Source: Bacteroidota bacterium
GTDB taxonomy: Bacteria > Bacteroidota > Bacteroidia > Palsa-948
Assembly (NCBI GenBank): GCA_016195025.1
Contig: JACQAL010000072.1
Location: 1-55,207, forward strand
Length of the DNA stretch: 55,207 nucleotides
Reading direction: 5' to 3'
Part shown: positions 95 to 35,410 of the stretch, piece after piece
Layout: each line of letters begins with the position of its first letter
Position numbering within the stretch: position 1 is the stretch's first letter
Notes under the pieces: generated by a model
Database searches by the model: none
What the model was told of the DNA's origin: nothing
The model's input: the letters and a program-made list of their open reading frames with translations, nothing else
Made by a program: the position numbers and the translations under genes

Positions 95-1678
95 ATGAAA
101 ACCAAAATGCAGAAGTACGAATGGCGCGGAACCGCGCCAAACATTCAAACCTTCAAGGTTTTGAAAACCTTGAAGGTTTACAACAGCCCTGTTCGATTGT
201 TCGATTGTTCGGTTGTTCGGTTGTTCTGTATTTGCATTTTCTTGAAAAGTCCCAAGCCCCAAGTATCAAGTCCCAAGTTCCAAGAAGCAGCCGGCATTCG
301 CTGTTCCTTGAAACTTGGAATTTGGAATTTGGGACTTGAGACTTTGCTGTTGCTTTTCTTCCTTTGCCAACTGCCAACTGCCAACTGCTCCGCACAAAGT
401 GACGGAGTCCGTATTCCATCGGACCAACTTTCTAAAGTGGATTCCCTCCTCACCGCAAAAGAAAACACGAATAAGGTGAATGCGCTGATAGAACTTGGAA
501 AAGAAATGGAAGCGGGCAGTGATAATGAAAAAAGAATAAGTTATTCCATGCAGGCAAAACAACTGGCGGAGAAATTAAATTACAAGAAGGGAATGGCTGC
601 CGCTTTGTTTAATCTCGGCAACACTTACTTTGACCACGCCAATTATCCCGAAACATTAAAAAATTATTTCGCCTGCCTCCGCCTCAGCGAAGAACTGAAC
701 GATAAAAAAACAACCGCTGCCATTCTCAGCAACCTCGGAATCGTATATTGGATTCAGCAGGATTACCGCCAGTCGCTGGCGTATTATTTTCGCTCGCTGA
801 AGATTGCGCAAGAAGCGGGATTCAAAAAACTCGAAGAAGGAAATTACGGCAACATCGGAATTGTATATGACGAGCAAGCCAATTATCCGCAGGCATTGTT
901 CTATCATTCCAAGGCGCTCAAACTTGCCCGGGAGCGCGGAGATAAAAACGGAATTGCACGCCACACGGGCAACATCGGCAACGTGTACAAGCGCCAGAAA
1001 GAATTTGCCGGTGCGCTTGATTATTATTTCCGCGCGCTGAAGATGAAAGAAGAACTGGATGATAAAAAAGAAATTGAAATCACGCTCGGCAACATCGGAA
1101 CGGTGTATCTTGCCACTCAAAAATACAACGAAGCGGAAAAGTTTTTGCAGCGCGCCCTTCTTCTCAGCGATTCGCTCGGTGATTTGGAAGGAGAAAAAGA
1201 ACTGCATGAAAACTTCAGTGTGTTAGACAGCGCGCGCGGCAATTTCAAAGGTGCGCTGGAGCATTATAAAAAATTCATCTCTGCCCGCGATACAATCAAC
1301 AGCGATGAGAACCAGAAAAAGCAAGTGCGCGTAGAAATGAACTACGAGTTTGACAAGAAAGAAGCGCTGGCAAAAGCAGAACAGGAAAAGAAAGATGCGG
1401 TTGCAGCAGCCGAAAAGAAAAGACAAAAGATAGTTTTGCTGTTTGTTGTTTGCGGTTTGTTGTTAGTCGTTGCATTCGCTGCGTTTATTCTACGTGCTTT
1501 TCTCGCCATCAAAAAGAAGAACAAAGAAATCTCCGAGCAAAAACGAATCATAGAAGAAAAGCAAAAAGATATTCTCGACAGCATCCACTACGCAGCCCGC
1601 ATTCAAAAGTGCATGATGCCCAATGAGAAGTGGATTGCAAAAGAAATTGCGCGGCTGAAAGCGCAAGGAAAGAAATAA
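95..1678 (+). CDS. TPR-repeat membrane protein with coiled coils, no phosphatase domain
   Basis: This 527-residue protein has about six 40-residue TPR units between residues 165 and 385 (GNIGxVY...A motifs), a charged coiled coil, one membrane segment near 446-468, a second coiled coil and the terminal motif SIHYAARIQ. The layout matches the neighbouring SpoIIE phosphatase protein up to its membrane and linker region, but the catalytic domain is absent. The likely role is a periplasmic TPR sensor or adaptor, which is inference. The first 85 or so codons are made almost wholly of short repeats (see the repeat entries) before a hydrophobic stretch LLLLFFL and a probable signal-peptidase site near CSAQ. 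The true start is uncertain: ATG 95 keeps the frame, but an in-frame TTG at 329 would give a normal signal peptide. Confidence 0.8.
   Translation: MKTKMQKYEWRGTAPNIQTFKVLKTLKVYNSPVRLFDCSVVRLFCICIFLKSPKPQVSSPKFQEAAGIRCSLKLGIWNLGLETLLLLFFLCQLPTANCSAQSDGVRIPSDQLSKVDSLLTAKENTNKVNALIELGKEMEAGSDNEKRISYSMQAKQLAEKLNYKKGMAAALFNLGNTYFDHANYPETLKNYFACLRLSEELNDKKTTAAILSNLGIVYWIQQDYRQSLAYYFRSLKIAQEAGFKKLEEGNYGNIGIVYDEQANYPQALFYHSKALKLARERGDKNGIARHTGNIGNVYKRQKEFAGALDYYFRALKMKEELDDKKEIEITLGNIGTVYLATQKYNEAEKFLQRALLLSDSLGDLEGEKELHENFSVLDSARGNFKGALEHYKKFISARDTINSDENQKKQVRVEMNYEFDKKEALAKAEQEKKDAVAAAEKKRQKIVLLFVVCGLLLVVAFAAFILRAFLAIKKKNKEISEQKRIIEEKQKDILDSIHYAARIQKCMMPNEKWIAKEIARLKAQGKK
122..139. repeat. Perfect 8-bp hairpin, GC-rich
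   Basis: The arms TGGCGCGG (122-129) and CCGCGCCA (132-139) are separated by AA. The hairpin lies within the first codons of the TPR gene that starts at 95 and is the first of a stack of repeats in 95-425. Confidence 0.8.
147..179. repeat. 33-bp perfect palindrome inside the N-terminal coding region
   Basis: The two 16-base arms around the central G at 163 are exactly complementary (left arm AAACCTTCAAGGTTTT). It is translated in frame as TFKVLKTLKV. It is a strong potential RNA hairpin or cruciform and looks like an inserted element rather than protein-selected sequence. Confidence 0.9.
191..225. repeat. 8-bp tandem repeat, GTTCGATT / GTTCGGTT type
   Basis: About four units of an 8-bp motif lie within the coding frame. 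The same motif recurs at 52872-52899, inside the signal region of the last gene of the window, over 52 kb away. Confidence 0.85.
247..340. repeat. Inverted-repeat block of CAAGTCCCAAG / CTTGGAATTTGG units
   Basis: The left half repeats variants of TCAAGTCCCAAG; the right half carries the complementary TTGGAATTTGGGACTT. The block can form a long stem and is translated in frame. A close copy lies at 1690-1790 in the same position of the next gene. Confidence 0.85.
365..388. repeat. 7-bp tandem repeat TGCCAAC in a signal-peptide region
   Basis: About three and a half units of a 7-bp motif encode CQLPTANC next to the hydrophobic core. Because three units equal seven codons and no frame of this unit contains a stop, the array is neutral to the reading frame. 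Similar arrays occur at 1802-1829 and 6288-6320. Confidence 0.85.
402..425. repeat. 24-bp dispersed repeat, copy 1 (ACGGAGTCCGT...CGGACC)
   Basis: This 24-mer differs at only two positions from 17154-17177, which lies inside an aminotransferase gene. Sixteen bases of it (CCGTATTCCATCGGAC) recur in reverse complement at 52529-52544. GTCCG and CGGAC can pair into a small hairpin. Here it is in frame just after the predicted signal peptide. Confidence 0.85.
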
Positions 1679-1681
1679 AAA

Positions 1682-3871
1682 ATGAAAACAAGTTCCAAAT
1701 ATCAAGTATCAAGTCCCAAGCCCCAAGAAAAGGCAAAAGCCGTTGGCTGTTCCTTGGGACTTGGAATTTGGAATTTGGGATTTGGAACTTTGCTGTTCTT
1801 TTGCCAACTGCCAACTGCCTATTGCCAACTTTCTAAGGTGGATTCTCTCCAGCAACTTATTCTCACTGCGAAAGAAGATACCGATAAAGTAAACGCGCAA
1901 AATAGTTTAAGCAAATACTATCTTGAACTCGGCAATTATTCGCAGGCAATGAAAGTTGCGTCAGATGCAAAGGCGCTTGCTGAAAAAATAAATTTCAGAA
2001 AAGGAAAAGCGAATGCGCTTAACAACACGGGGAAAATTTTCTGGTCGCAGGGAAATTATGCCGATGCGCTCAAAAATCATTTGCAGGCGTTGAAAATCCG
2101 CGAAGAGATTGGCGATAAAAAAGGCGCGGCAAGTTCCTATGGAAATATCGGCAACATTTATCAGTCGCAGGGCAATTATCCCGAAGCCATCAACAATTAC
2201 CTGAAAGCGCTGAAAGTGTTTGAAGAGTTAGACGACAAGCGCTTAATTGCCGCTACGCAAAATAATATCGGGCTGGTGTATTGGTCGCAGCAGAATTATG
2301 CCGAAGCGCTGAATTATTACAATCAATCGCTGAAAATAAGGAAGGAGATAAATGACAAACCCGGCATCGCTACTTCGTGCAACAACATCGGGTTGATATT
2401 TTATGACCAGCATAATTATTCCGATGCGCTGAAAAACCATTTGCTTGCTTTGAAACTACGCGAAGAAACAGGCGATAAAAAAGGAATTGCCGATTCCTAC
2501 AACAACATCGGAATTATTTACGAGAAGCAAAAAAAATATTCCGATGCGCTGGCAAGTCATTTCAAAGCGCTGAGCATACGGCAGGAAATTGGCGACAAGA
2601 AAGGAATTGCTTCTTCGCATATCAACATCGGAAATGTTTTTGCCACCGAGAAAAAAATCGGCATTGCAAGAGAGCATTTGAACAAAGCGCTCGAACTTTC
2701 AAAAGAAATTGGCGCGAAGGAATATATTAAAGATAGTTTTGCAGGACTTGCACTTGCCGACAGCGCAGAAAAAAATTTCGAAGGAGCATTTAACGATTAC
2801 AAGCGCTACGTTGCTTACCGCGATAGTTTGGTGAACGAAGAAATCACCAAGAAGACCGTGCAGGCGCAAATGAATTACGAGTTTGAGAAAAAGCAGGCAG
2901 AAGAAAAATTAGAACAGGAACGCAAAGATGCCATTGCCAAACGCGAGCGCGAACGCGAACTGATGATTCGAAATTTTTTCATCGCTGCCTCTGTACTTAT
3001 GCTTGCGCTGGTTTTTTTTATTTACCGCGGCTACCGCAGCAAGCAGAAAGCGAATATAATCATCACGCAGCAGAAAGAAGAAGTGGAGCGGCAAAAAGAA
3101 ATCATCCAGGAAAAAAACCAAGGCATCACTGACAGCATCAACTATGCACAGCGCATTCAGCGCGCGCTGTTTGCATCGGATGCGCTTCTTCAGAAAAATT
3201 TTCCCGGCTATTTTATTTTCTTCAAGCCGAAAGATATTGTGAGCGGAGATTTTTACTGGGCTGCGGAAAAAGACAACCGGTTTTACCTCGCGGTATGCGA
3301 TTCCACCGGCCATGGCGTGCCGGGTGCATTCATGAGTTTGCTGAACATTTCTTATCTGAATGAAGCGGTGAATGAAAAAAGCAACACGCACCCGCACGAA
3401 ATTTTTAATCACGTGCGCCAGCGGCTCATTGAAAATATTTCTTCCGAAGGCGCGCAGGATGGAATGGATGGAATATTGCTATGCTGTTCCAAAGAAGAAG
3501 GGATTAAGATTGAATACGCGGCAGCAAACAATGCGCCTGTTCTTGTTCGTGATGGAAAAATCAGTGAACTCGAAACCGATAATATGTCCGTTGGCTTGAG
3601 CGAAAGAAAAAACTCTTTTACGCACAGGGTTGTTCCATCAACCATCAACCGTCAGCCATCAACCCTTTACCTTTACACCGATGGCTTTGCCGACCAGTTT
3701 GGTGGTGAGAGAGGAAAAAAATTCAAGTACAAACAACTCAATGAAAAATTAATTTCTCTCAACCATCTTACTTTAACCGAACAGAAAAAAGAACTGGAAA
3801 AAACTTTTGATGAGTGGAAAGGAAATCTTGAACAGGTGGATGACGTACTTGTAATAGGTATTAGAATATAG
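1682..3871 (+). CDS. TPR sensor with C-terminal SpoIIE/PP2C-type phosphatase domain
   Basis: This 729-residue protein has an N-terminal signal region containing repeat-derived sequence, about seven TPR units (residues 110-370), a coiled coil, a membrane segment near 430-450, a second coiled coil with the YAQRIQ linker, and a SpoIIE-like Ser/Thr phosphatase domain (508-729). Metal-site motifs are visible: VSGDFYW, CDSTGHGVPGAFMS near 539 and YTDGFADQFGG near 664. The family dephosphorylates partner proteins such as anti-sigma-factor antagonists; the target here is unknown. The 3-bp gap from the preceding TPR gene suggests co-transcription. A 7-bp tandem repeat (3635-3664) is inserted in frame just before the YTDG motif, in what should be a loop. 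ATG 1682 is the only plausible upstream start. Confidence 0.9.
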   Translation: MKTSSKYQVSSPKPQEKAKAVGCSLGLGIWNLGFGTLLFFCQLPTAYCQLSKVDSLQQLILTAKEDTDKVNAQNSLSKYYLELGNYSQAMKVASDAKALAEKINFRKGKANALNNTGKIFWSQGNYADALKNHLQALKIREEIGDKKGAASSYGNIGNIYQSQGNYPEAINNYLKALKVFEELDDKRLIAATQNNIGLVYWSQQNYAEALNYYNQSLKIRKEINDKPGIATSCNNIGLIFYDQHNYSDALKNHLLALKLREETGDKKGIADSYNNIGIIYEKQKKYSDALASHFKALSIRQEIGDKKGIASSHINIGNVFATEKKIGIAREHLNKALELSKEIGAKEYIKDSFAGLALADSAEKNFEGAFNDYKRYVAYRDSLVNEEITKKTVQAQMNYEFEKKQAEEKLEQERKDAIAKRERERELMIRNFFIAASVLMLALVFFIYRGYRSKQKANIIITQQKEEVERQKEIIQEKNQGITDSINYAQRIQRALFASDALLQKNFPGYFIFFKPKDIVSGDFYWAAEKDNRFYLAVCDSTGHGVPGAFMSLLNISYLNEAVNEKSNTHPHEIFNHVRQRLIENISSEGAQDGMDGILLCCSKEEGIKIEYAAANNAPVLVRDGKISELETDNMSVGLSERKNSFTHRVVPSTINRQPSTLYLYTDGFADQFGGERGKKFKYKQLNEKLISLNHLTLTEQKKELEKTFDEWKGNLEQVDDVLVIGIRI
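1690..1790. repeat. Inverted-repeat block, second copy
   Basis: Same family as 247-340: TCAAGTCCCAAGCCCCAAG units on the left and TTGGAATTTGGAATTTGGG on the right. It encodes the residues between the initiator methionine and the hydrophobic part of the signal peptide of the phosphatase gene. Confidence 0.85.
1802..1829. repeat. 7-bp tandem repeat TGCCAAC, second copy
   Basis: Four imperfect units encode CQLPTAYCQL at the predicted signal-peptide cleavage region, matching the position of the array at 365-388 in the previous gene. Confidence 0.8.
3635..3664. repeat. 7-bp tandem repeat (CCATCAA) inside the phosphatase domain
   Basis: Four units, one of them diverged, encode PSTINRQPST directly before the conserved YLYTDG motif. 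The same motif occurs in bioA at 9459-9487. Confidence 0.85.
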
Positions 3872-24967: not shown

Positions 24968-26347
24968 ATGAAAAAATCTTTACACCTTTCATTCATCCTT
25001 TGCGGAGTTTTATTTCTTGGTTCGTCTTCTGCAAACGCACAACTTATTGCTGCGGGCGGCTATCATTCGCTTTTCAACTGCACCAGCAACACCGCGTATG
25101 CCTGCGGACAAAATCTTTACGGGCAGTTGGGCGATGCCACTTCCATTGACAAACACACGCCTGTGCAGGCGAGCGGAGCAACCAGCGTAATTGCAGTGGC
25201 AACGGTGTATGACCATTCACTTTTTCTGAAAAGCAACAACACCGTTTGGTCGTGCGGAGATAATACGTACGGACAATTAGGCGATGGCACCAACACGGGC
25301 AAAAATGCTTCCGTGCAGGTAAGCGGGGTGTCGGGCATAATAGTTATTGCTGCCGGTTACCAGCATTCACTCTTTGTAAAAAATGACGGCACTGTTTGGT
25401 CGTGCGGAGACAACACCTACGGGCAGTTGGGCGATGGCACCACCACTCAGCGAAAAACTCCCGTGCAGGTGAGCGGCCTGACAGGAATTACTGCAGCGGC
25501 AGCAGGGCAATATCAATCCCTGTTTCTGAAAAACGATGGCACTGTTTGGTCATGCGGAAGAAATAATTACGGGCAGCTGGGCGATGGAACCAACACCGAC
25601 CGGCATTCTCCCGTACAAATTACTTCGCTCAGCGGAATTTCATTTATTGCTGCGGGCGCTTCGCATTCCATGTTTATAAAGAGCGGTGCGGTGTGGGCTT
25701 GCGGAAGAAATAATTTCGGGCAGTTGGGCGATGGCACCACCACCAACCGCAAAACTCCCGTGCAGGCGAGCGGGCTCAGCGGAATTATTTATGTTGCAGG
25801 AGGAACGTATCATTCCCTCTTTGTGAAAAACACTAACACTGTCTGGTGTTGCGGGCAAAACGGTTACGGGCAATTGGGTGATGGCACCACTACCGACCAG
25901 CACACTGCAGTGCAGGCAAGTTCATTATCCGGCATTACGGAAGTGGCAGGGGGCGGCTCTCATTCGCTCTTCCTGAAAAATGACGGCACCGTTTGGTCAT
26001 GCGGCTACAATATTTACGGAGAGTTGGGCGATGGCACCACTACCGATAAGCATACCCCAATTCAAATAACCGGTCTTTGCAGTGTGGGTGTGAATGCAGT
26101 GGCTGAAAATATTCTCACGGAAAATTTGCGCCTTTACCCGAATCCCTCAAACGGGCAATTCACCATTGCGGGAACAGCAAAGCAATCACAGATTGAAATT
26201 TATAATATGCTGGGAGAAAGAATTTATAAATCTGAAATCAACAATTCAAAAATTGAAATTAATTTAGTTGGTCAGCCAAGCGGAATTTACATGGTAAAGA
26301 TTTCTGTTTCAAACGAAATTATTACCAAGAAGATTGTGATTGAATAA
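24968..26347 (+). CDS. Secreted RCC1-repeat beta-propeller with T9SS type A sorting domain
   Basis: This 459-residue protein has a signal peptide (ending SSANAQ) and seven RCC1-like units of about 51 residues (HSLFLKNDGTVWSCG-type strand followed by NTYGQLGDGTTT), expected to close into one seven-bladed propeller. A C-terminal domain of about 75 residues (LRLYPNPSNGQFTIAG ... IEIYNMLGERIY ... PSGIYMVKISVSN ... KKIVIE) is a type IX secretion signal, so the protein is exported across the outer membrane and probably attached to the surface. Repeat DNA is highly similar, indicating recent internal duplication. Ligand unknown. Confidence 0.92.
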   Translation: MKKSLHLSFILCGVLFLGSSSANAQLIAAGGYHSLFNCTSNTAYACGQNLYGQLGDATSIDKHTPVQASGATSVIAVATVYDHSLFLKSNNTVWSCGDNTYGQLGDGTNTGKNASVQVSGVSGIIVIAAGYQHSLFVKNDGTVWSCGDNTYGQLGDGTTTQRKTPVQVSGLTGITAAAAGQYQSLFLKNDGTVWSCGRNNYGQLGDGTNTDRHSPVQITSLSGISFIAAGASHSMFIKSGAVWACGRNNFGQLGDGTTTNRKTPVQASGLSGIIYVAGGTYHSLFVKNTNTVWCCGQNGYGQLGDGTTTDQHTAVQASSLSGITEVAGGGSHSLFLKNDGTVWSCGYNIYGELGDGTTTDKHTPIQITGLCSVGVNAVAENILTENLRLYPNPSNGQFTIAGTAKQSQIEIYNMLGERIYKSEINNSKIEINLVGQPSGIYMVKISVSNEIITKKIVIE

Positions 26348-28008: not shown

Positions 28009-29784
28009 ATGAAAAAATTAATACTCTTTCCCTCAATTATTTTTCTGCAATATGCAGGAATGCATGCACAAATCAATTACACCGTTGATGCAAACGCTTT
28101 TCTTGGCGCATCACTCGAAGGCGGTAACACGCAAGTTCGTCTTGCCGATGTTGATCAGGATGGTCATCTGGATTTGATTTCCATAGGAGATCACGGCAGC
28201 CCGAACATCAACACCAATCAGCACGGTGTGATGACTTATTTCGGTGACGGCACCGGAACAAATTTTTTTCTGTCAATGAATGGTGGTTTTGGCTATGGCG
28301 GATGCGCAGTAGGAGATATTAATAATGACGGCAAACAAGATATTGCTTACAGTTGTCATCATTCCGGAAAATATATTGATGCACTTATCGGAGACGGAAG
28401 CGGTACAAACTGGTCTGCATATGGAGCCGGGCTTGCCACGAACGGAGAAACCTACGGAATGTTCGGAACAGATTTAGCAGATATCAACAACGATGGCTGG
28501 CTCGATCTTGCTTCCAATTCTTTCGGACAGGGAAACGGTGTGCACATCTATAAGAATAACCAAAACGGAACATGGACGCAAAGCGCAGCATTTGCGCAGA
28601 ATGGAGCTGTAGGCAAGTATGTTAAGTTTGGAGATATTGACGGAGACGGTAATATGGATTTTGTTGTTTCCAATGAATTGGTTGCTGCTTATTTCGGAAA
28701 CGGCACCGGAACTTTCACGAATAAGGATAACGGTCTTCCTTACTCAATAAGCGGATATCCATATGAAGATGTTTCGCTTGGAGATATTGACAACGATGGC
28801 GATGATGATTTTATTTTTTCAAACTGGGATGCTGCGGGAGTCCGCGGAGTTTATGTTTACAAATGGAATAAAGTAACACAGTCGTGGGACAATGCTTCAG
28901 CCGGGCTTCCTACATCAACTACTTCATGGTTCTACATCAATCGTTTGGCAGATATGGATATGGATGGGTATCTCGATGTGATAACGGCAAACTACGATAC
29001 AAAGAATTTAGAAATCTATAAAGGAAACGGTGGAACATCGTGGACTCTTTGGACATCCATTCCGTTTCCAAATATGTATTGGGCGCAGGTTGCAGATATG
29101 GCATTTGGCGATGTAAATCACAGCGGCTATCCTGACATTGCATATTGGTACAGCACGACAGGTGGCAATGCACTGGTTTTAATAAAAGACGATAAAATTC
29201 CTACAGATGTTTCCGCATCGCTCACTTATCCCAAAGGAGGAGAATGCTGGCCCAACAATGCAGTTCGATTTATTAATTGGATTTCTGCGATTCCTTCTAA
29301 TCATTCTTCATCGGTGAAGATTGAATATTCCACTGCAGGAAATTCCGGGCCATGGACAGTGATTGCAAACGCTGCACCCAACAATGGAATTTACCAGTGG
29401 AATGTTCCGGCTTCGGTGAATTCTTCAAATTGCTTTATCCGAATTACTGCAACCGATAATATAACTTCTAAAACTGCAGTTACAATGAATGGAAATCCAT
29501 TTAACATGGGATGTAATTCATCAACCACAGCAATTTTAGAAGAAGAAAATACAAGTGCTGTTTCTGTCTATCCGAATCCGTTCACTTCGTCTGTGACAAT
29601 TTCTTCCGAAATGCAAAACTGTTCAGTAAATATTTTTGATTTAACTGGAAATGCAGTTCGTAAAATTTCAAATGTGAATCAATTTCCATTTACAATTGAA
29701 AGAGGAAATCTTTCTTCAGGAATTTATTTTCTTGAACTTAGAAATGAAAACAAAGTTGAAAGAACCAAACTCGTTATAGAGTAA
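28009..29784 (+). CDS. Secreted FG-GAP/VCBS-repeat protein with T9SS type A sorting domain
   Basis: This 591-residue protein has a signal peptide and seven FG-GAP-type calcium-binding motifs (DVDQDGHLDL, DINNDGKQDI, DINNDGWLDL, DIDGDGNMDF, DIDNDGDDDF, DMDMDGYLDV, and a degenerate DVNHSGYPDI), expected to form an integrin-like beta-propeller. An Ig-like segment (residues 400-500) precedes a type IX sorting domain (VYPNPFTSSVTISSEM ... SSGIYFLELRNE ... RTKLVIE). That domain is very close to the one in the next gene, suggesting shared origin. Likely a surface or released binding protein; the ligand is unknown. Confidence 0.92.
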   Translation: MKKLILFPSIIFLQYAGMHAQINYTVDANAFLGASLEGGNTQVRLADVDQDGHLDLISIGDHGSPNINTNQHGVMTYFGDGTGTNFFLSMNGGFGYGGCAVGDINNDGKQDIAYSCHHSGKYIDALIGDGSGTNWSAYGAGLATNGETYGMFGTDLADINNDGWLDLASNSFGQGNGVHIYKNNQNGTWTQSAAFAQNGAVGKYVKFGDIDGDGNMDFVVSNELVAAYFGNGTGTFTNKDNGLPYSISGYPYEDVSLGDIDNDGDDDFIFSNWDAAGVRGVYVYKWNKVTQSWDNASAGLPTSTTSWFYINRLADMDMDGYLDVITANYDTKNLEIYKGNGGTSWTLWTSIPFPNMYWAQVADMAFGDVNHSGYPDIAYWYSTTGGNALVLIKDDKIPTDVSASLTYPKGGECWPNNAVRFINWISAIPSNHSSSVKIEYSTAGNSGPWTVIANAAPNNGIYQWNVPASVNSSNCFIRITATDNITSKTAVTMNGNPFNMGCNSSTTAILEEENTSAVSVYPNPFTSSVTISSEMQNCSVNIFDLTGNAVRKISNVNQFPFTIERGNLSSGIYFLELRNENKVERTKLVIE

Positions 29785-29879: not shown

Positions 29880-31757
29880 ATGAAAAAAATTTACTTAGTA
29901 ATCTTATCGGGATTATTTTTCTTCCACACCGCGTTTGCACAGCAAACCGGCTCATTTGACATGACGGTGAACTTTGCGGGAAATCCCAACTTTCCTATTT
30001 CATTTTATGTTCCTTCAAATTATAATCCCGCCAATCCGTATAAATTAATTGTCGGGCTTCACGGGCTGGGAGATAATTGCCAGAACTACAGAAATTACCT
30101 GGCGCAAAATGTTGCAGGTGTTCCCAGTTCGCCCGTGTATAATGCGATCGTTGTTGCGCCATCAAACGGTGACGGCTCCAACACGGATTTCTGGACTTAT
30201 CCCTGCGATACAAGCATCATCACCATTGCGATGAACCTTGCTAAGAATAATTATAACATTGACGCAAATGGAATTTACTTGCAGGGAATTTCTCTCGGAG
30301 GTCGTGCGGCTCTCCGTTATGGTCTGATAAATTATTCCCGCTTCTGCGGAATTGAATTATGGTGCCCGGCTGTTCAGTCGCTCGCGGAAGCAAATAATCA
30401 AGACCCTTCTTTTACCTACCCTTATCAGAACGGAAAATATATTCCGGTAAGCATTTCAATCGGCTCAGAAGACGGCTATATTGAGAATGGACAACTTGAT
30501 GCAAGCATGAATCAGTTTCTTTCTGCTGGAGCGCTGGCAAACATGCAGATTGAACTCGGTGCGCCTCACGGAGCGCCAAGCAGCGCATACATTTTCAACA
30601 ATTACAACTATATTAATGCAAATGTTTCTACCTACGCGAACAATGACGCGGGCATTTCTGATATCGTAACTCCGTTTGACGAAGAGTGCTCAACAAGTTT
30701 TTCTCCCGTGATAAAAATTCAGAACAAAGGAGCGAACAATCTTACTTCAGTGGTGATAAATTATCAGATAGATGGCGGACCAATACAAACGTATAACTGG
30801 TCGGGGAATTTAAAGCGATTGGAAAAAACTTCTGTAACGCTTCCATCGCAGTCAGTTGCACTCGGTTCGCACACTTTCAATGCTTACACTTCTTCTCCGA
30901 ACGGACAAACAGATGCGGTTCCTTCCAACGATGCATCGCTGAGAAATTTTACTTCGCTCACCAACGGCTCTGTTTCTCTTTCTGAAGGATTTGAAAACGC
31001 AGCATATCCTCCTGTTGGATGGAAACAGTCTGGCACAGATAAAGTTTGGAAATGGCAGAAGGTTACTGGCATTGGCGCGAACGGAAGCAGCGCCTGCATA
31101 AAATTTGACAACTGGACATTTGATAAGACAGGAAGAAGATATTCCATTTACACTGCTGAATATGATTTTACAAATGCTGGAAATGCCATTCTCACTTATG
31201 ACTACGCGTATGTTCCGTATCAGGACGCGCAGGGAATTTATGGCGATACGCTTGTAGTTTTTTATTCCACCAGCTGCGGAAGCACATGGACTCAACTTTT
31301 ATATAAAGGTGGAATGCAATTAAGTTCAACAGGAAGCACAACGAACTCCTGGTTTATTCCAAGCAGTTCTGCGCAATGGAAAACAGAAACCATAAATCTT
31401 TCCAGTCTTGTTGGACAACCTAAAGTAATGTTGCGCTTTGAAGATAGACCCAACTGGTCTAACTTGCTTTATCTGGATAATGTTAAGCTAACAGGTATTA
31501 CTGCAGTGAATGAAGAACAGAAAGAAGCAGCGCTGTTTGTTTTTCCAAATCCGATGAATACATCAGCGACAATCATTTCTGAAATGAAAGACTGTTCTGT
31601 CAGCATTTTTGATGTTACAGGCAACCTGGTCAAGAGTTTTTCAAATATCAGTCAGTTTCCCTTGGCAATTCAAAGAGAAAATTTATCTTCGGGAATGTAT
31701 TTCATAGAGCTTCGTTCTGAAAATAAAATTGAAAGAACAAAACTTATTGTTCAGTAA
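29880..31757 (+). CDS. Secreted alpha/beta-hydrolase (esterase) with T9SS type A sorting domain
   Basis: This 625-residue protein has a signal peptide, an esterase/PHB-depolymerase-like domain (residues 25-240) with LIVGLHGLGDNCQNYRN and the nucleophile elbow GISLGG (Ser138), and a possible catalytic His in GAPHGAPS. Then come a CARDB-like segment (KIQNKGANNLTSVVINYQIDG), a jelly-roll-like domain (EGFENAAYPPVGWKQSG ... DYAYVPYQDAQG) and a type IX sorting domain (FVFPNPMNTSATI ... RTKLIVQ). It probably hydrolyses an ester or polymer outside the cell; substrate unknown. Its stop overlaps the next start by one base (TAATG), so expression is coupled to the copper monooxygenase-like gene. Confidence 0.88.
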   Translation: MKKIYLVILSGLFFFHTAFAQQTGSFDMTVNFAGNPNFPISFYVPSNYNPANPYKLIVGLHGLGDNCQNYRNYLAQNVAGVPSSPVYNAIVVAPSNGDGSNTDFWTYPCDTSIITIAMNLAKNNYNIDANGIYLQGISLGGRAALRYGLINYSRFCGIELWCPAVQSLAEANNQDPSFTYPYQNGKYIPVSISIGSEDGYIENGQLDASMNQFLSAGALANMQIELGAPHGAPSSAYIFNNYNYINANVSTYANNDAGISDIVTPFDEECSTSFSPVIKIQNKGANNLTSVVINYQIDGGPIQTYNWSGNLKRLEKTSVTLPSQSVALGSHTFNAYTSSPNGQTDAVPSNDASLRNFTSLTNGSVSLSEGFENAAYPPVGWKQSGTDKVWKWQKVTGIGANGSSACIKFDNWTFDKTGRRYSIYTAEYDFTNAGNAILTYDYAYVPYQDAQGIYGDTLVVFYSTSCGSTWTQLLYKGGMQLSSTGSTTNSWFIPSSSAQWKTETINLSSLVGQPKVMLRFEDRPNWSNLLYLDNVKLTGITAVNEEQKEAALFVFPNPMNTSATIISEMKDCSVSIFDVTGNLVKSFSNISQFPLAIQRENLSSGMYFIELRSENKIERTKLIVQ

Positions 31758-33334
31758 TGAATTTTACAAAAACTATTTCCGCAGTTTCAATTCTGAGTTT
31801 TTATCTCGGAGCGCTTCAAAGTTTTTCTCAGTCACCTGACTGGGCGCAGAATGTTGCTCCTATATTATATAACAAATGCACAAGCTGTCATCACTCGGGA
31901 GGAATTGCTCCGTTCCCTTTGATAACTTATACAGACGCTCAGCCCTGGACTTCTCTCATTCAGGCAGATGTACAGAGCGGGAAAATGCCCCCGTGGGTTC
32001 CTGATACAACCTACAGACATTACGTTCATGAGCGGGTGTTGTCTCAGCAGGAAATAAATACAATTGTAACATGGGTGAATAACGGAGTGCCTTCAGGAAA
32101 TCTTTCTCTTGCTCCAACTCCTCCTGTTTACAACAATGGTTCTTTTCTTGGAACTCCTGATTTAAAGTTGACGATTCCTCTCTATACAAGTGTTGCGTCA
32201 ACCAACGATAAGTATCAGTGTTTTTCCTTGCCTACAAATTTTCCACAGGACAGATTTATCAGGGCAATTGAAGTTATTCCCGGTAATAAACAGATTGTTC
32301 ATCACGTAGTGGTTTTTGAAGACACGGTGAATACAGTTATGATTCCAACCGTAGATACTTCATGTAATTTATCGACTACAAAAATCCTAAGTGTGTATGT
32401 CCCCGGTGCAACACCCGCTATTTTTCCGAACGGAGCAAATGTGAAAATGGGAATGCGACTTTCAGCCGGTGCCACTATCCGGGCGCAGATTCATTACCCG
32501 AGAAACACGGCAGGACAGCAGGACAGCACCTCTGTAAATATTTTTTTCTATCCTTTAAACACAAGCGGAATAAGAGAAATTTACGCTGATTTTTTGCTCG
32601 GCAATTGGAACCTCGCCATTCCTCCCGATTCCACAAAAATTTATACCGCACGCTATCCTGACACAACCACAACTCCTGTGGATTATTCCTTGCTCTCGGT
32701 TTTTCCGCACATGCATCTGATAGGGAAAGAAATTGAATCGTATTCAGTCGGTCCGATGAATGACACCACCAAGTTTGTAAAAATTAATAATTGGAATTTT
32801 CACTGGCAGGATTTTTACAGTTTCAAAAAAATAATAAAACTTCCGGCTGGAAGCACACTTCATTCACGCGGGCTATATGATAACACAGTAAACAATCCGA
32901 ATAATCCGAACTCTCCGCCTCAATTGGTAGTCGCAGGTGAACAAACCACTGATGAAATGTTTTTGGTTGCATTTCAGTATTTGCCTTATCAGTCGGGCGA
33001 TGAAAATATTTCTCTTGATACATTGCTTAATCCTCCAACTGCCATGAGTGAAATTCCTACTTCCAATTTTTCCTGCTACGCTTTTCCGAATCCTACTTCA
33101 CGGGAAATAGCTTTTCAGTATTATTTAGATTATCCTTCTATTGTGAAAATTAATTTTTATGACGAACTTGGAAAAAAAATAAAATCTCTTTCTGAAAATC
33201 AAAGCGGAGGAACAAGGCAAATCATTTGGAACATAAAAGATGAAAATGAAAATAAATTGTCAAGCGGAGTTTACTTCTATAAAATAGAAACGGAAAATAA
33301 AACTTCTTCGGGAAAAATTATTATACAACATTAA
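31757..33334 (+). CDS. Cytochrome c / copper type II monooxygenase-like fusion with T9SS sorting domain
   Basis: This 525-residue secreted protein has a signal peptide, then a heme-binding motif CTSCH (residues 41-45) in a cytochrome-c-like domain (ILYNKCTSCHHSGGIAPFPL; SGKMPPWVPD supplies a candidate distal Met). Next is a two-part domain like the ascorbate-dependent copper monooxygenases (PHM/DBM family). All six copper-ligand positions of PHM have candidates in order: His182-His183 (VHHVVVF), His246 (AQIHYPR), His318 and His320 (FPHMHLIGK), Met401 (DEMFLVAFQY), with similar spacing. It ends in a type IX sorting domain (CYAFPNPTSREIAF ... SSGVYFYKIET). The heme domain could deliver electrons to the copper site; this is inference. 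Confidence 0.88.
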   Translation: MNFTKTISAVSILSFYLGALQSFSQSPDWAQNVAPILYNKCTSCHHSGGIAPFPLITYTDAQPWTSLIQADVQSGKMPPWVPDTTYRHYVHERVLSQQEINTIVTWVNNGVPSGNLSLAPTPPVYNNGSFLGTPDLKLTIPLYTSVASTNDKYQCFSLPTNFPQDRFIRAIEVIPGNKQIVHHVVVFEDTVNTVMIPTVDTSCNLSTTKILSVYVPGATPAIFPNGANVKMGMRLSAGATIRAQIHYPRNTAGQQDSTSVNIFFYPLNTSGIREIYADFLLGNWNLAIPPDSTKIYTARYPDTTTTPVDYSLLSVFPHMHLIGKEIESYSVGPMNDTTKFVKINNWNFHWQDFYSFKKIIKLPAGSTLHSRGLYDNTVNNPNNPNSPPQLVVAGEQTTDEMFLVAFQYLPYQSGDENISLDTLLNPPTAMSEIPTSNFSCYAFPNPTSREIAFQYYLDYPSIVKINFYDELGKKIKSLSENQSGGTRQIIWNIKDENENKLSSGVYFYKIETENKTSSGKIIIQH

Positions 33335-33349
33335 ATCAATTTTTATGCA

Positions 33350-35410
33350 ATGAAAAAATATTTATGGCTCTGCATCCTGATTATATCGGAATTCACTTTT
33401 TATTTTTTTCTTTTCAGCTATGTGTGCTTTGCTCAAACATCGATTGCTGTTGGAGGATATATGCACTCGGTTATTGCTGCGCCTAACGGTGCATGCGGCT
33501 GGGGAAATGGCGGAACAGGAAGAATTGGGTACGGAGGAACAGCCAATCCAATTGCTACACCTACTGCAGTTGTTCTTCCCGCAGGAAAAACGGTTACAAA
33601 AGTGGCTGCCGGAAAAGAAACCACTTTTTTTCTTATGAATGATGGCACCGTATATGGCTGCGGAGCAAATGATGTTGGTCAATTAGGCACAGGCAATACT
33701 ACACAGCAAAATACTCCCATACAAATAGGAGCGGGAAATACATATACTGATATTGCTTGCGGGCAAGACCAAGACCACTGCCTTCTTCTAAGAAATGACG
33801 GAACGGTTTGGGGATTAGGGCGAAATGCCGATGGTGAATTAGGCACCGGAGATATCTCTGCGTCCTGCATCTCCAGCCCCTGCACCTGCGTTAGTACTAA
33901 TTGCGAGTGGGCACCCAAGCAAGTAGTAGGAGTTGGAGGTGTGGGTTTTTTAACAGGTATTACAAATATTTTTGCAGGAGCATATCAATCTTTTGCTATT
34001 AAAAGTGATGGAACTGTTTACGGCTGGGGAAATAATTCATCCGGCCAGTTAGGAGATGGAACGACTACAAGCCCAAGAACATCGCCTATTCAGGTTTCAA
34101 TAACCGCTACTGTTACAAAGATTATCGTGGGTGCTGCTCACACACTCTTTCTAAAAAATGACGGCACGGTTTGGGCTTGCGGTGATAATGGAGTTTCTTC
34201 CACTTGCGGATTCCTTGTTCCGTACGATAGGAATGGAAATTTAGCCCTTGCATCCATTACTTCAGGAGCATTGGTTATCGGAGCACAGTATTCTATTAAA
34301 ACTTATAATGCAGGAGATAATTTCAGCAATGTGGCAGGAAGTATTTACGGAACCATTAATACAAGCTGCTGCGAGTTTACTGCTATAGGAACAACTCCTA
34401 CAAGTTATGCTGCCGGCTCATTATTAGCAATTATGAATACACCCACACCCATGCAATGTAATGATCTTCCTGCTGGAACATGGATTGATATTGCAGCAGG
34501 CAGCGGTTATTCTCTTTTTGTCCGCAATGACAATACTGTTTGGGGTTCAGGAACTAATACATACGGACAATTAGCAACCGGAACTACTGCAACAAAAAAA
34601 AGTCCTGTGCAGCTCGGCTCGCCTTCTCTTTTGAGCGGCATCACACAAGTTGCGGCATCAAGAGGCAACAGCACTTCTCTTTTTTATAACGGCACTACTA
34701 AAATTCTCTATTCTGTGGGATACAATGCAGATGGTCAGTTAGGCGATGGAACAACAGGAAACGATGTTGGTTGTACGCAATGCAGATGGAAACAAGTTCA
34801 GGTAGTGGGAAGCCCGGGAAGTTGTGTTGCCACAATTTTGCAGGTTGAACTTATTTCTTTTAATGCTGCGTGCAAAAACGGAACCGTAGTTTGTGATTGG
34901 TCAACCGCTTCCGAAATCAATAATGATTATTTTGAAATTGAAAAAAGTTCAGAAGGAAAAAATTTTGAACCGATTGGAAAAATAAAAGGCGCAGGAAATT
35001 CTTCCACAGAAAAAAATTATTCTTTCACAGATGAAACTCCCTATTCAACCAATCAGTCAATCAACCAATCAGCCAATTTCTATCGCCTCAAACAAACTGA
35101 CTATGACGGCAGAAATAATTATTACGGACCGATTTCGGTGAACTGCTCCTTACCTGATGAATGGAATCTGATTTTGCAAAATTTTTTCTCTGAGGATGAA
35201 TTGAAAGGCACGCTGGTCACTCCTGAAAATTCTGATATAAAAATTTCCATAGTTGATTTACAGGGAAGAATCATCAAAGAGGAAAATTTGCAGGGGCAGA
35301 AAGGTTCTATTTTTTTCAAAATGGAATTAAATAATATAGCCAAAGGACTCTATATAATAAAAGCAGATTTCAACAAAAAAGAAATTGCCAAAAAGTTTAT
35401 TAACCTTTAG
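33350..35410 (+). CDS. Secreted RCC1-repeat protein with inserted domain and T9SS sorting domain
   Basis: This 686-residue protein has a long signal peptide, about six to seven RCC1-like units (GWGNGGTGRIGYGG, YGCGANDVGQLGTG, WGLGRNADGELGTG, YGWGNNSSGQLGDG, WACGDNG, WGSGTNTYGQLATG, YSVGYNADGQLGDG), and a type IX-associated C-terminus (VELISFNAACKNGTVVCDWS ... YRLKQTDYDG ... FINL). The fifth blade is split after WACGDNG by about 80 residues (ALVIGAQYSIKTYNAGDNF ... EFTAIGTTPTSYAAGS), a module otherwise seen in phage-like and surface proteins. A NQSINQSAN stretch is encoded by a short repeat. Possibly co-transcribed with the copper monooxygenase gene 15 bp upstream. Confidence 0.88.
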   Translation: MKKYLWLCILIISEFTFYFFLFSYVCFAQTSIAVGGYMHSVIAAPNGACGWGNGGTGRIGYGGTANPIATPTAVVLPAGKTVTKVAAGKETTFFLMNDGTVYGCGANDVGQLGTGNTTQQNTPIQIGAGNTYTDIACGQDQDHCLLLRNDGTVWGLGRNADGELGTGDISASCISSPCTCVSTNCEWAPKQVVGVGGVGFLTGITNIFAGAYQSFAIKSDGTVYGWGNNSSGQLGDGTTTSPRTSPIQVSITATVTKIIVGAAHTLFLKNDGTVWACGDNGVSSTCGFLVPYDRNGNLALASITSGALVIGAQYSIKTYNAGDNFSNVAGSIYGTINTSCCEFTAIGTTPTSYAAGSLLAIMNTPTPMQCNDLPAGTWIDIAAGSGYSLFVRNDNTVWGSGTNTYGQLATGTTATKKSPVQLGSPSLLSGITQVAASRGNSTSLFYNGTTKILYSVGYNADGQLGDGTTGNDVGCTQCRWKQVQVVGSPGSCVATILQVELISFNAACKNGTVVCDWSTASEINNDYFEIEKSSEGKNFEPIGKIKGAGNSSTEKNYSFTDETPYSTNQSINQSANFYRLKQTDYDGRNNYYGPISVNCSLPDEWNLILQNFFSEDELKGTLVTPENSDIKISIVDLQGRIIKEENLQGQKGSIFFKMELNNIAKGLYIIKADFNKKEIAKKFINL

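Follow-up and report, generated by a model that had tools for sequence, protein, structure and literature searches.

A candidate cell-surface dicopper monooxygenase with a fused c-type cytochrome domain in Bacteroidota

The stretch of DNA analysed here, 55,207 nucleotides of contig JACQAL010000072.1 (Bacteroidota assembly GCA_016195025.1) and referred to below as the window, carries at 31757..33334 a gene for a 525-residue protein which, as read from its sequence, consists of a signal peptide, a c-type heme domain, a complete PHM/DBH-type dicopper core and a sorting tail of the type IX secretion system (T9SS). With a probability of roughly two in three, we take this protein to be a self-contained copper monooxygenase of the cell surface, in which the fused cytochrome feeds electrons to the coppers and the substrate is linked to an esterase. 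An earlier sequence-only reading had proposed such a heme-copper fusion, and the CTSCH motif and six copper ligands in PHM order on which it relied are present in the open reading frame (ORF), the six ligands aligning with those of PHM and DBH.

Domain architecture and the copper core

The features of the fusion gene are given below. CuH denotes the three-His copper and CuM the His-His-Met copper. Counts out of 80 refer to the 80 best relatives with the window protein extra, and counts out of 81 are tallies of pocket positions.

31757..33334, forward strand: heme-PHM fusion gene, 525 residues, ATG start (ORF; Pfam and NCBIfam matches)
31757..31831, forward strand: predicted N-terminal signal peptide, residues 1-25 (hydrophobic stretch read by eye)
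31841..32104, forward strand: predicted c-type heme domain, about residues 29-116 (weak Haem_bd and CBB3 Pfam matches; three-helix model)
31877..31891, forward strand: heme attachment motif CTSCH, residues 41-45 (Cys, Cys and His conserved in 80/80 relatives and the window)
31985..31987, forward strand: candidate distal heme ligand Met77, in GKMPPW (conserved in 80/80 relatives and the window)
32150..32995, forward strand: predicted PHM/DBH-type dicopper core, residues 132-413 (VIA-align Z 21-23 to PHM/DBH; profile alignments)
32300..32305, forward strand: predicted CuH ligands H182 and H183, PHM H107 and H108 (conservation, profile alignment)
32492..32494, forward strand: predicted CuH ligand H246, PHM H172 (conservation, profile alignment)
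32708..32716, forward strand: predicted CuM ligands H318 and H320 in HMH 318-320, PHM H242 and H244 (conservation, profile alignment)
32957..32959, forward strand: predicted CuM ligand M401, PHM M314 (conservation, second profile alignment)
33083..33325, forward strand: type A T9SS C-terminal sorting domain, residues 443-523 (PF18962, 34 bits; TIGR04183, 45 bits)

Among the Pfam models, Cu2_monoox_C (PF03712; 33.2 bits, cut-off 23) and Por_Secre_tail (PF18962; cut-off 27) score over their cut-offs, as does the T9SS tail model TIGR04183 of NCBIfam. Cu2_monooxygen (PF01082; 25.4 bits, cut-off 30), Haem_bd (24.9 bits, cut-off 27) and Cytochrome_CBB3 fall below theirs. The over-threshold tail is accompanied by a full-length PorU sortase in the window genome, as expected for a type A T9SS cargo, and the tail domain of the predicted model superposes on the PorU C-terminal domain with Z 12.7 (VIA-align). 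These observations fit the earlier claim of a surface location, display itself being predicted.

The copper core was placed by two profiles searched against the PDB. A profile of 17 relatives matched human DBH at 2.1e-14 and rat PHM at about 4e-6, the His-His, His and His-x-His ligands being in register. When a divergent branch was added, the second profile matched DBH at 4e-13 and PHM at 1.1e-8, and its register runs on through Asp-Glu-Met, so that the sixth ligand, Met401, is aligned too. By these alignments the six predicted copper ligands correspond one to one with those of rat PHM. An AlphaFold2 model computed from 61 sequences (mean predicted local distance difference test score (pLDDT) 89.9, predicted template modelling score (pTM) 0.73) retrieved only PHM or DBH among its top 31 Foldseek matches in the PDB. 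The in-register profile matches and the identity of these top Foldseek matches argue that the ligand pattern is not due to chance. In VIA-align the predicted model superposed on DBH (4ZEL) with Z 23.4 over 300 residues at 3.2 Å and on PHM (6ala_C) with Z 23.4 over 257 residues at 2.5 Å; model residues 112-392 lie on PHM 54-327, the stretch with all six ligands (Z 21-23). Neither of the two findings that the sequence-only reading had named as fatal to it, a predicted structure in which the six ligands do not meet and the loss of ligands in close homologues, was seen. The predicted fold overlays PHM across the whole ligand-bearing stretch, and none of the ligands is lost in any close or distant homologue examined.

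The conservation behind the latter statement comes from two sets. A scan of one genome per species gave at least 562 confirmed relatives, of which the best 80, judged to be Bacteroidota, were analysed. In 80/80 the six copper ligands are kept, as are the two heme Cys, the heme His and the candidate distal Met; for the HMH pair this is partly imposed, as one of the two search patterns itself requires it. An independent set, drawn from a 296-genome phylum sample and the genus of the window, keeps the six copper ligands in 33/33 non-redundant ORFs. Comparison of the window protein with a divergent second branch, at about 18% identity, leaves 11 invariant columns, six of which are the copper ligands. 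With three CuH histidines, the HxH and Met of CuM and a two-domain fold in the model, the protein has the features of the PHM/DBH dicopper superfamily, and two bound coppers and O2-dependent hydroxylation are predicted on this basis.

The heme domain and electron supply

CTSCH conforms to the CxxCH attachment motif of class I c-type cytochromes, as do the corresponding motifs in the 80/80 relatives, and the invariant Met77 is its putative distal ligand. The window genome has two matches to Cytochrom_C_asm, a CcsA-type heme-assembly family. Modelled alone, the heme domain forms three helices with pLDDT 83. Foldseek returned nothing below 0.001 for this model, a cytochrome c6 being at the top with E 1.2, and the VIA rows at Z of 2 or more were c-type cytochromes only, with Z at most 3.1. 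A strong match of the heme domain to a solved fold is ruled out by these values, and the heme assignment therefore rests on the motif, its conservation and weak family matches.

The association of the heme motif with the copper core is general within the phylum sample. The C-terminal PHM domain occurs in 29/296 genomes with 36 matches, of which 33 ORFs were fetched. The heme motif is present in 32/33 (31 found by pattern, plus L029, whose spacing the pattern missed); the sole ORF devoid of it, L028, is truncated at a contig end. In the Bacteroidota sample, all fetched PHM-core ORFs with an intact N-terminus thus carry a fused heme motif. Two layouts can be told apart. In layout A, to which the window protein is similar, a Met stands 36 residues past the first Cys of CxxCH, the PHM core comes next, and a tail of T9SS length usually ends the protein. 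Layout B proteins are lipoprotein-like (by eye) and stop a few residues past the copper Met, without a T9SS-length tail; their heme motif is CxxCH, CX3CH or CX4CH, followed at a distance of 72-82 residues by a Met-Pro. Layout B comprises L007, L011, L012, L016, L018-L022, L025, L026, L031 and L032, with CATSGCH (CX4CH) among its heme motifs, and a profile including this branch gives a weak match to hydrazine synthase alpha (5c2v, E 1.4e-4) over its heme-motif region. L029 (1450-3255, genome G118) is a longer variant with a redoxin-like N-terminal extension (by eye), CTQCH and the PHM core and without a T9SS tail.

The window genome, of 3.5 Mb, holds five heme-PHM paralogues (L134-L136 and the window gene among them), all with the heme motif and six ligands and two of them in tandem. 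Extra sequence ahead of the tail was seen in the paralogue L004.

The mechanism that we propose would begin with export to the periplasm, where the protein would gain a covalent c-type heme and two coppers, after which the type IX system would move it to the outer surface. There the PHM/DBH-type core would hydroxylate a C-H bond of an exogenous substrate, CuM binding O2 and CuH giving the second electron. According to PMC6123673, the coppers of PHM lie about 11 Å apart and O2 binds at CuM only. The fused cytochrome would draw single electrons from an extracellular donor and hand them to the coppers, thereby doing the job of ascorbate in animal PHM and DBH; for PHM, PMC6529398 names ascorbate as the source of electrons. 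The substrate would be one freed by the neighbouring secreted esterase and not a C-terminal glycine. That the heme stands in for ascorbate is the simplest reading, because the heme motif is found in every complete ORF examined and because a c-type cytochrome domain from Cellvibrio reduces a copper monooxygenase, LPMO, as stated in PMC8981238. Metal and heme loading, the direction of electron flow, hydroxylation and the class of substrate are what we infer.

Two alternatives accept the domain assignments and differ in what the metals do. The dicopper core might be intact and yet hydroxylate no substrate, heme and coppers together forming a surface oxidase, an enzyme that makes or uses peroxide, or a route of outward electron transfer. 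Sequence cannot tell the direction of electrons, H2O2 can replace O2 and reductant in PHM according to PMC6123673, and each checked PHM position of known substrate role departs from the PHM residue in at least some of the proteins. We nevertheless consider this alternative unlikely, as the two-site fold seen in the model is the signature of a hydroxylating family and as the CuM Met and three CuH His are invariant across two deep branches.

Alternatively, the heme domain might be structural, sensory or a docking module, and the coppers might be reduced directly by a small reductant, the part played by ascorbate in animals. Such a role would suit a separate small domain, which the heme domain is. 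We regard it as improbable, since none of the complete PHM-core ORFs fetched from the phylum sample lacks a heme motif. The motif persists even in the second branch, where its spacings are CX2-4CH and the distal Met lies at another position, which suggests that the heme is a needed partner.

Substrate pocket and neighbouring esterases

Arg240 and Asn316 are the PHM residues which we take to hold the peptidylglycine substrate, Arg240 presumably being the carboxylate anchor. The position equivalent to Arg240 was fixed by the alignment of the 17-relative profile and that of Gln272 was matched by eye. The Arg240 equivalent is Phe, Ala, Met or Ser in 81/81 and Arg in 0/81, the Asn316 equivalent is Leu, Ile, Val or Met in 81/81 and Asn in 0/81, while the Gln272 equivalent is Gln throughout (81/81). 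The Tyr318 equivalent is aromatic in 79/81 and Ala in the window protein. A bacterial peptidylglycine alpha-hydroxylase producing peptide amides, for which the common fold and ligands and the mostly aromatic Tyr318 position could be cited, is thus very improbable, since the equivalents of Arg240 and Asn316 are never Arg or Asn and the window protein has Ala at the Tyr318 position. With the substrate-anchoring Arg never present, amidation in the manner of PHM is not indicated; as a default function it is ruled out by the absence of both residues, and the peptidyl-glycine option of the sequence-only reading is disfavoured. The more hydrophobic pocket, the missing carboxylate anchor and the secreted esterases and FadL/GDSL proteins encoded nearby point instead to a hydrophobic or aryl substrate, probably a compound tied to ester hydrolysis.

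Two genes lie upstream of the fusion.

29880..31757, forward strand: secreted esterase, 625 residues (PF00756/PHB-depolymerase-like alpha/beta hydrolase with a T9SS tail; ORF, Pfam, NCBIfam)
28009..29784, forward strand: FG-GAP T9SS protein (Pfam), which lies upstream of the esterase also in the closest relative (L139/L054)

The esterase stop and the heme-PHM ATG share one base, TAATG at 31755-31759, which agrees with the one-base overlap noted earlier and is typical of translational coupling. A substrate shared between the two proteins is what we infer from this arrangement.

The window-type esterase was followed through seven genomes of the genus, five of which (5/7) hold the PHM family, a close copy being defined by 55% identity or more. 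Close copies occur in 3/7. The window genome has one, which adjoins the PHM gene, and G297 has one, which is convergent with two tandem PHM genes. G300 has four, of which one lies about 3.2 kb upstream of its PHM gene, and shows an expansion of the window-type esterase family, with nine matches. G296 and G301 have a lone PHM gene each and no close copy of the window-type esterase in either genome. A second PHM copy of the window genome has an esterase of a different family, BD-FAE, downstream on the same strand; BD-FAE occurs in three frames only across that genome.

A survey of 80 loci, 69 of them with more than 1 kb of upstream DNA, found a BD-FAE-type esterase upstream on the same strand in 25/69, directly upstream in 21 of those 25, and the window-type esterase in 1/69 (L054), so that 26/69 have an esterase of either family. 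The order FadL/TodX transporter, GDSL-like lipase, esterase, PHM occurs in 11 loci, and GDSL-esterase-PHM in two more, the GDSL assignment being below the Pfam cut-off. The full order, with a BD-FAE esterase and heme-PHM, was observed in Flavobacteriales at L062:1997-7521 and at ten more loci like it. The esterase-adjacency label is clustered on the family tree and needs 7 changes (rows with enough flank plus the window, the window scored as adjacent). An upstream-slot hypergeometric value of 2.5e-23 takes no account of relatedness and is not treated as a p-value. At the genome level, a BD-FAE-type esterase (E 1e-20; 31 genomes) and the PHM core (29 genomes) co-occur in 6/296 against 3.0 expected (one-sided p 0.066). 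Two separate BD-FAE clades, together with the window-type esterase and the BD-FAE located downstream of L001, point to a repeated association, yet this co-occurrence is weak, and the esterase is therefore a recurrent and not an obligate partner. Pairing as a universal rule is ruled out by the weak co-occurrence and by the lone PHM genes of G296 and G301. Of the gene pair proposed earlier, a real and recurrent association with two esterase families stands; its generality does not, most relatives being without an esterase.

Several observations weigh against a surface monooxygenase fed by its own cytochrome and linked to an esterase. The Gln two residues ahead of the third His (presumably Q170 in PHM numbering) is Q in 23/81, and the isolated heme-domain model resembles cytochromes c weakly (E > 1, Z at most 3.1). 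Neither esterase family lies within the flank of 43/69 loci with enough upstream DNA, and the structural support is a fold overlay of a predicted model.

A wider reading, which we think less likely than not, would see in these proteins a large and so far unnamed group of bacterial dicopper hydroxylases that are self-sufficient, heme-wired and active at the cell surface. Their own cytochrome would take electrons from outside the cell, possibly from esterase-released phenolics, and where encoded in a FadL-GDSL-esterase-PHM operon they would oxidise hydrophobic esters or polyesters. If this were true, PHM/DBH chemistry would be old, bacterial and linked to electron transport, and not an invention of the eukaryotic secretory pathway.

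Elsewhere in the window, two T9SS-tailed proteins with RCC1 repeats lie near the pair (24968-26347 and 33350-35410); RCC1-type beta-propeller repeats are better known from eukaryotes. Two adjacent TPR-repeat ORFs occupy 95-3871, the second with a terminal SpoIIE-type phosphatase domain. A comparison with 72,556 plasmid records gave no match that would indicate a plasmid origin.

Comparison with known systems

PHM and DBH are textbook animal copper enzymes dependent on ascorbate. No description of a bacterial heme-PHM fusion was found in the open-access literature, a weak absence as titles and the starts of abstracts were searched with literal terms. The family is apparently undescribed and not hidden, its sequences being in public genomes and detected by a Pfam model. 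Planctomycetes and other phyla also hold PF03712 proteins with cytochrome domains. In a table of one review (PMC7435645), PHM and DBM are placed under eukaryotic and not prokaryotic cuproproteins. A bacterial core with a cytochrome attached throughout the sample would be a tractable system for studying electron delivery to and between the coppers, its donor being bound covalently and open to optical observation. The extracellular chemistry of Bacteroidota would moreover gain a heme-driven copper oxygenase other than LPMO, whose esterase partner would narrow the search for its substrate.

Rat PHM (1PHM/6ALA) shares with the window protein the two-domain fold, the six copper ligands in order and the invariant equivalent of Q272 (by eye). 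They differ in that the window protein, at about 18% identity, is bacterial, carries an N-terminal c-type heme motif and a T9SS tail, and has no Arg240 or Asn316. Human DBH (4ZEL) is the best match by sequence (2e-14) and joint-best by structure (Z 23.4). Like the window protein, it has an additional domain ahead of the core. DBH is an animal enzyme whose extra N-terminal domain is DOMON, with no heme, whereas the window protein is bacterial and has a heme motif in its N-terminal domain; no DOMON match was found in it by Pfam at E up to 1. The VIA alignment with 4zel_A starts at model residue 15, and its extent ahead of the core is ambiguous. LPMOs have a mononuclear His-brace fold unrelated to PHM. 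The cytochrome CjX183 of Cellvibrio japonicus Cbp2D and bacterial LPMOs are a case of a small c-type cytochrome domain donating electrons to a secreted copper monooxygenase, as described in PMC8981238. Finally, the Pfam families Cu2_monooxygen and Cu2_monoox_C match both halves of the core, and the heme and T9SS modules lie outside that family.

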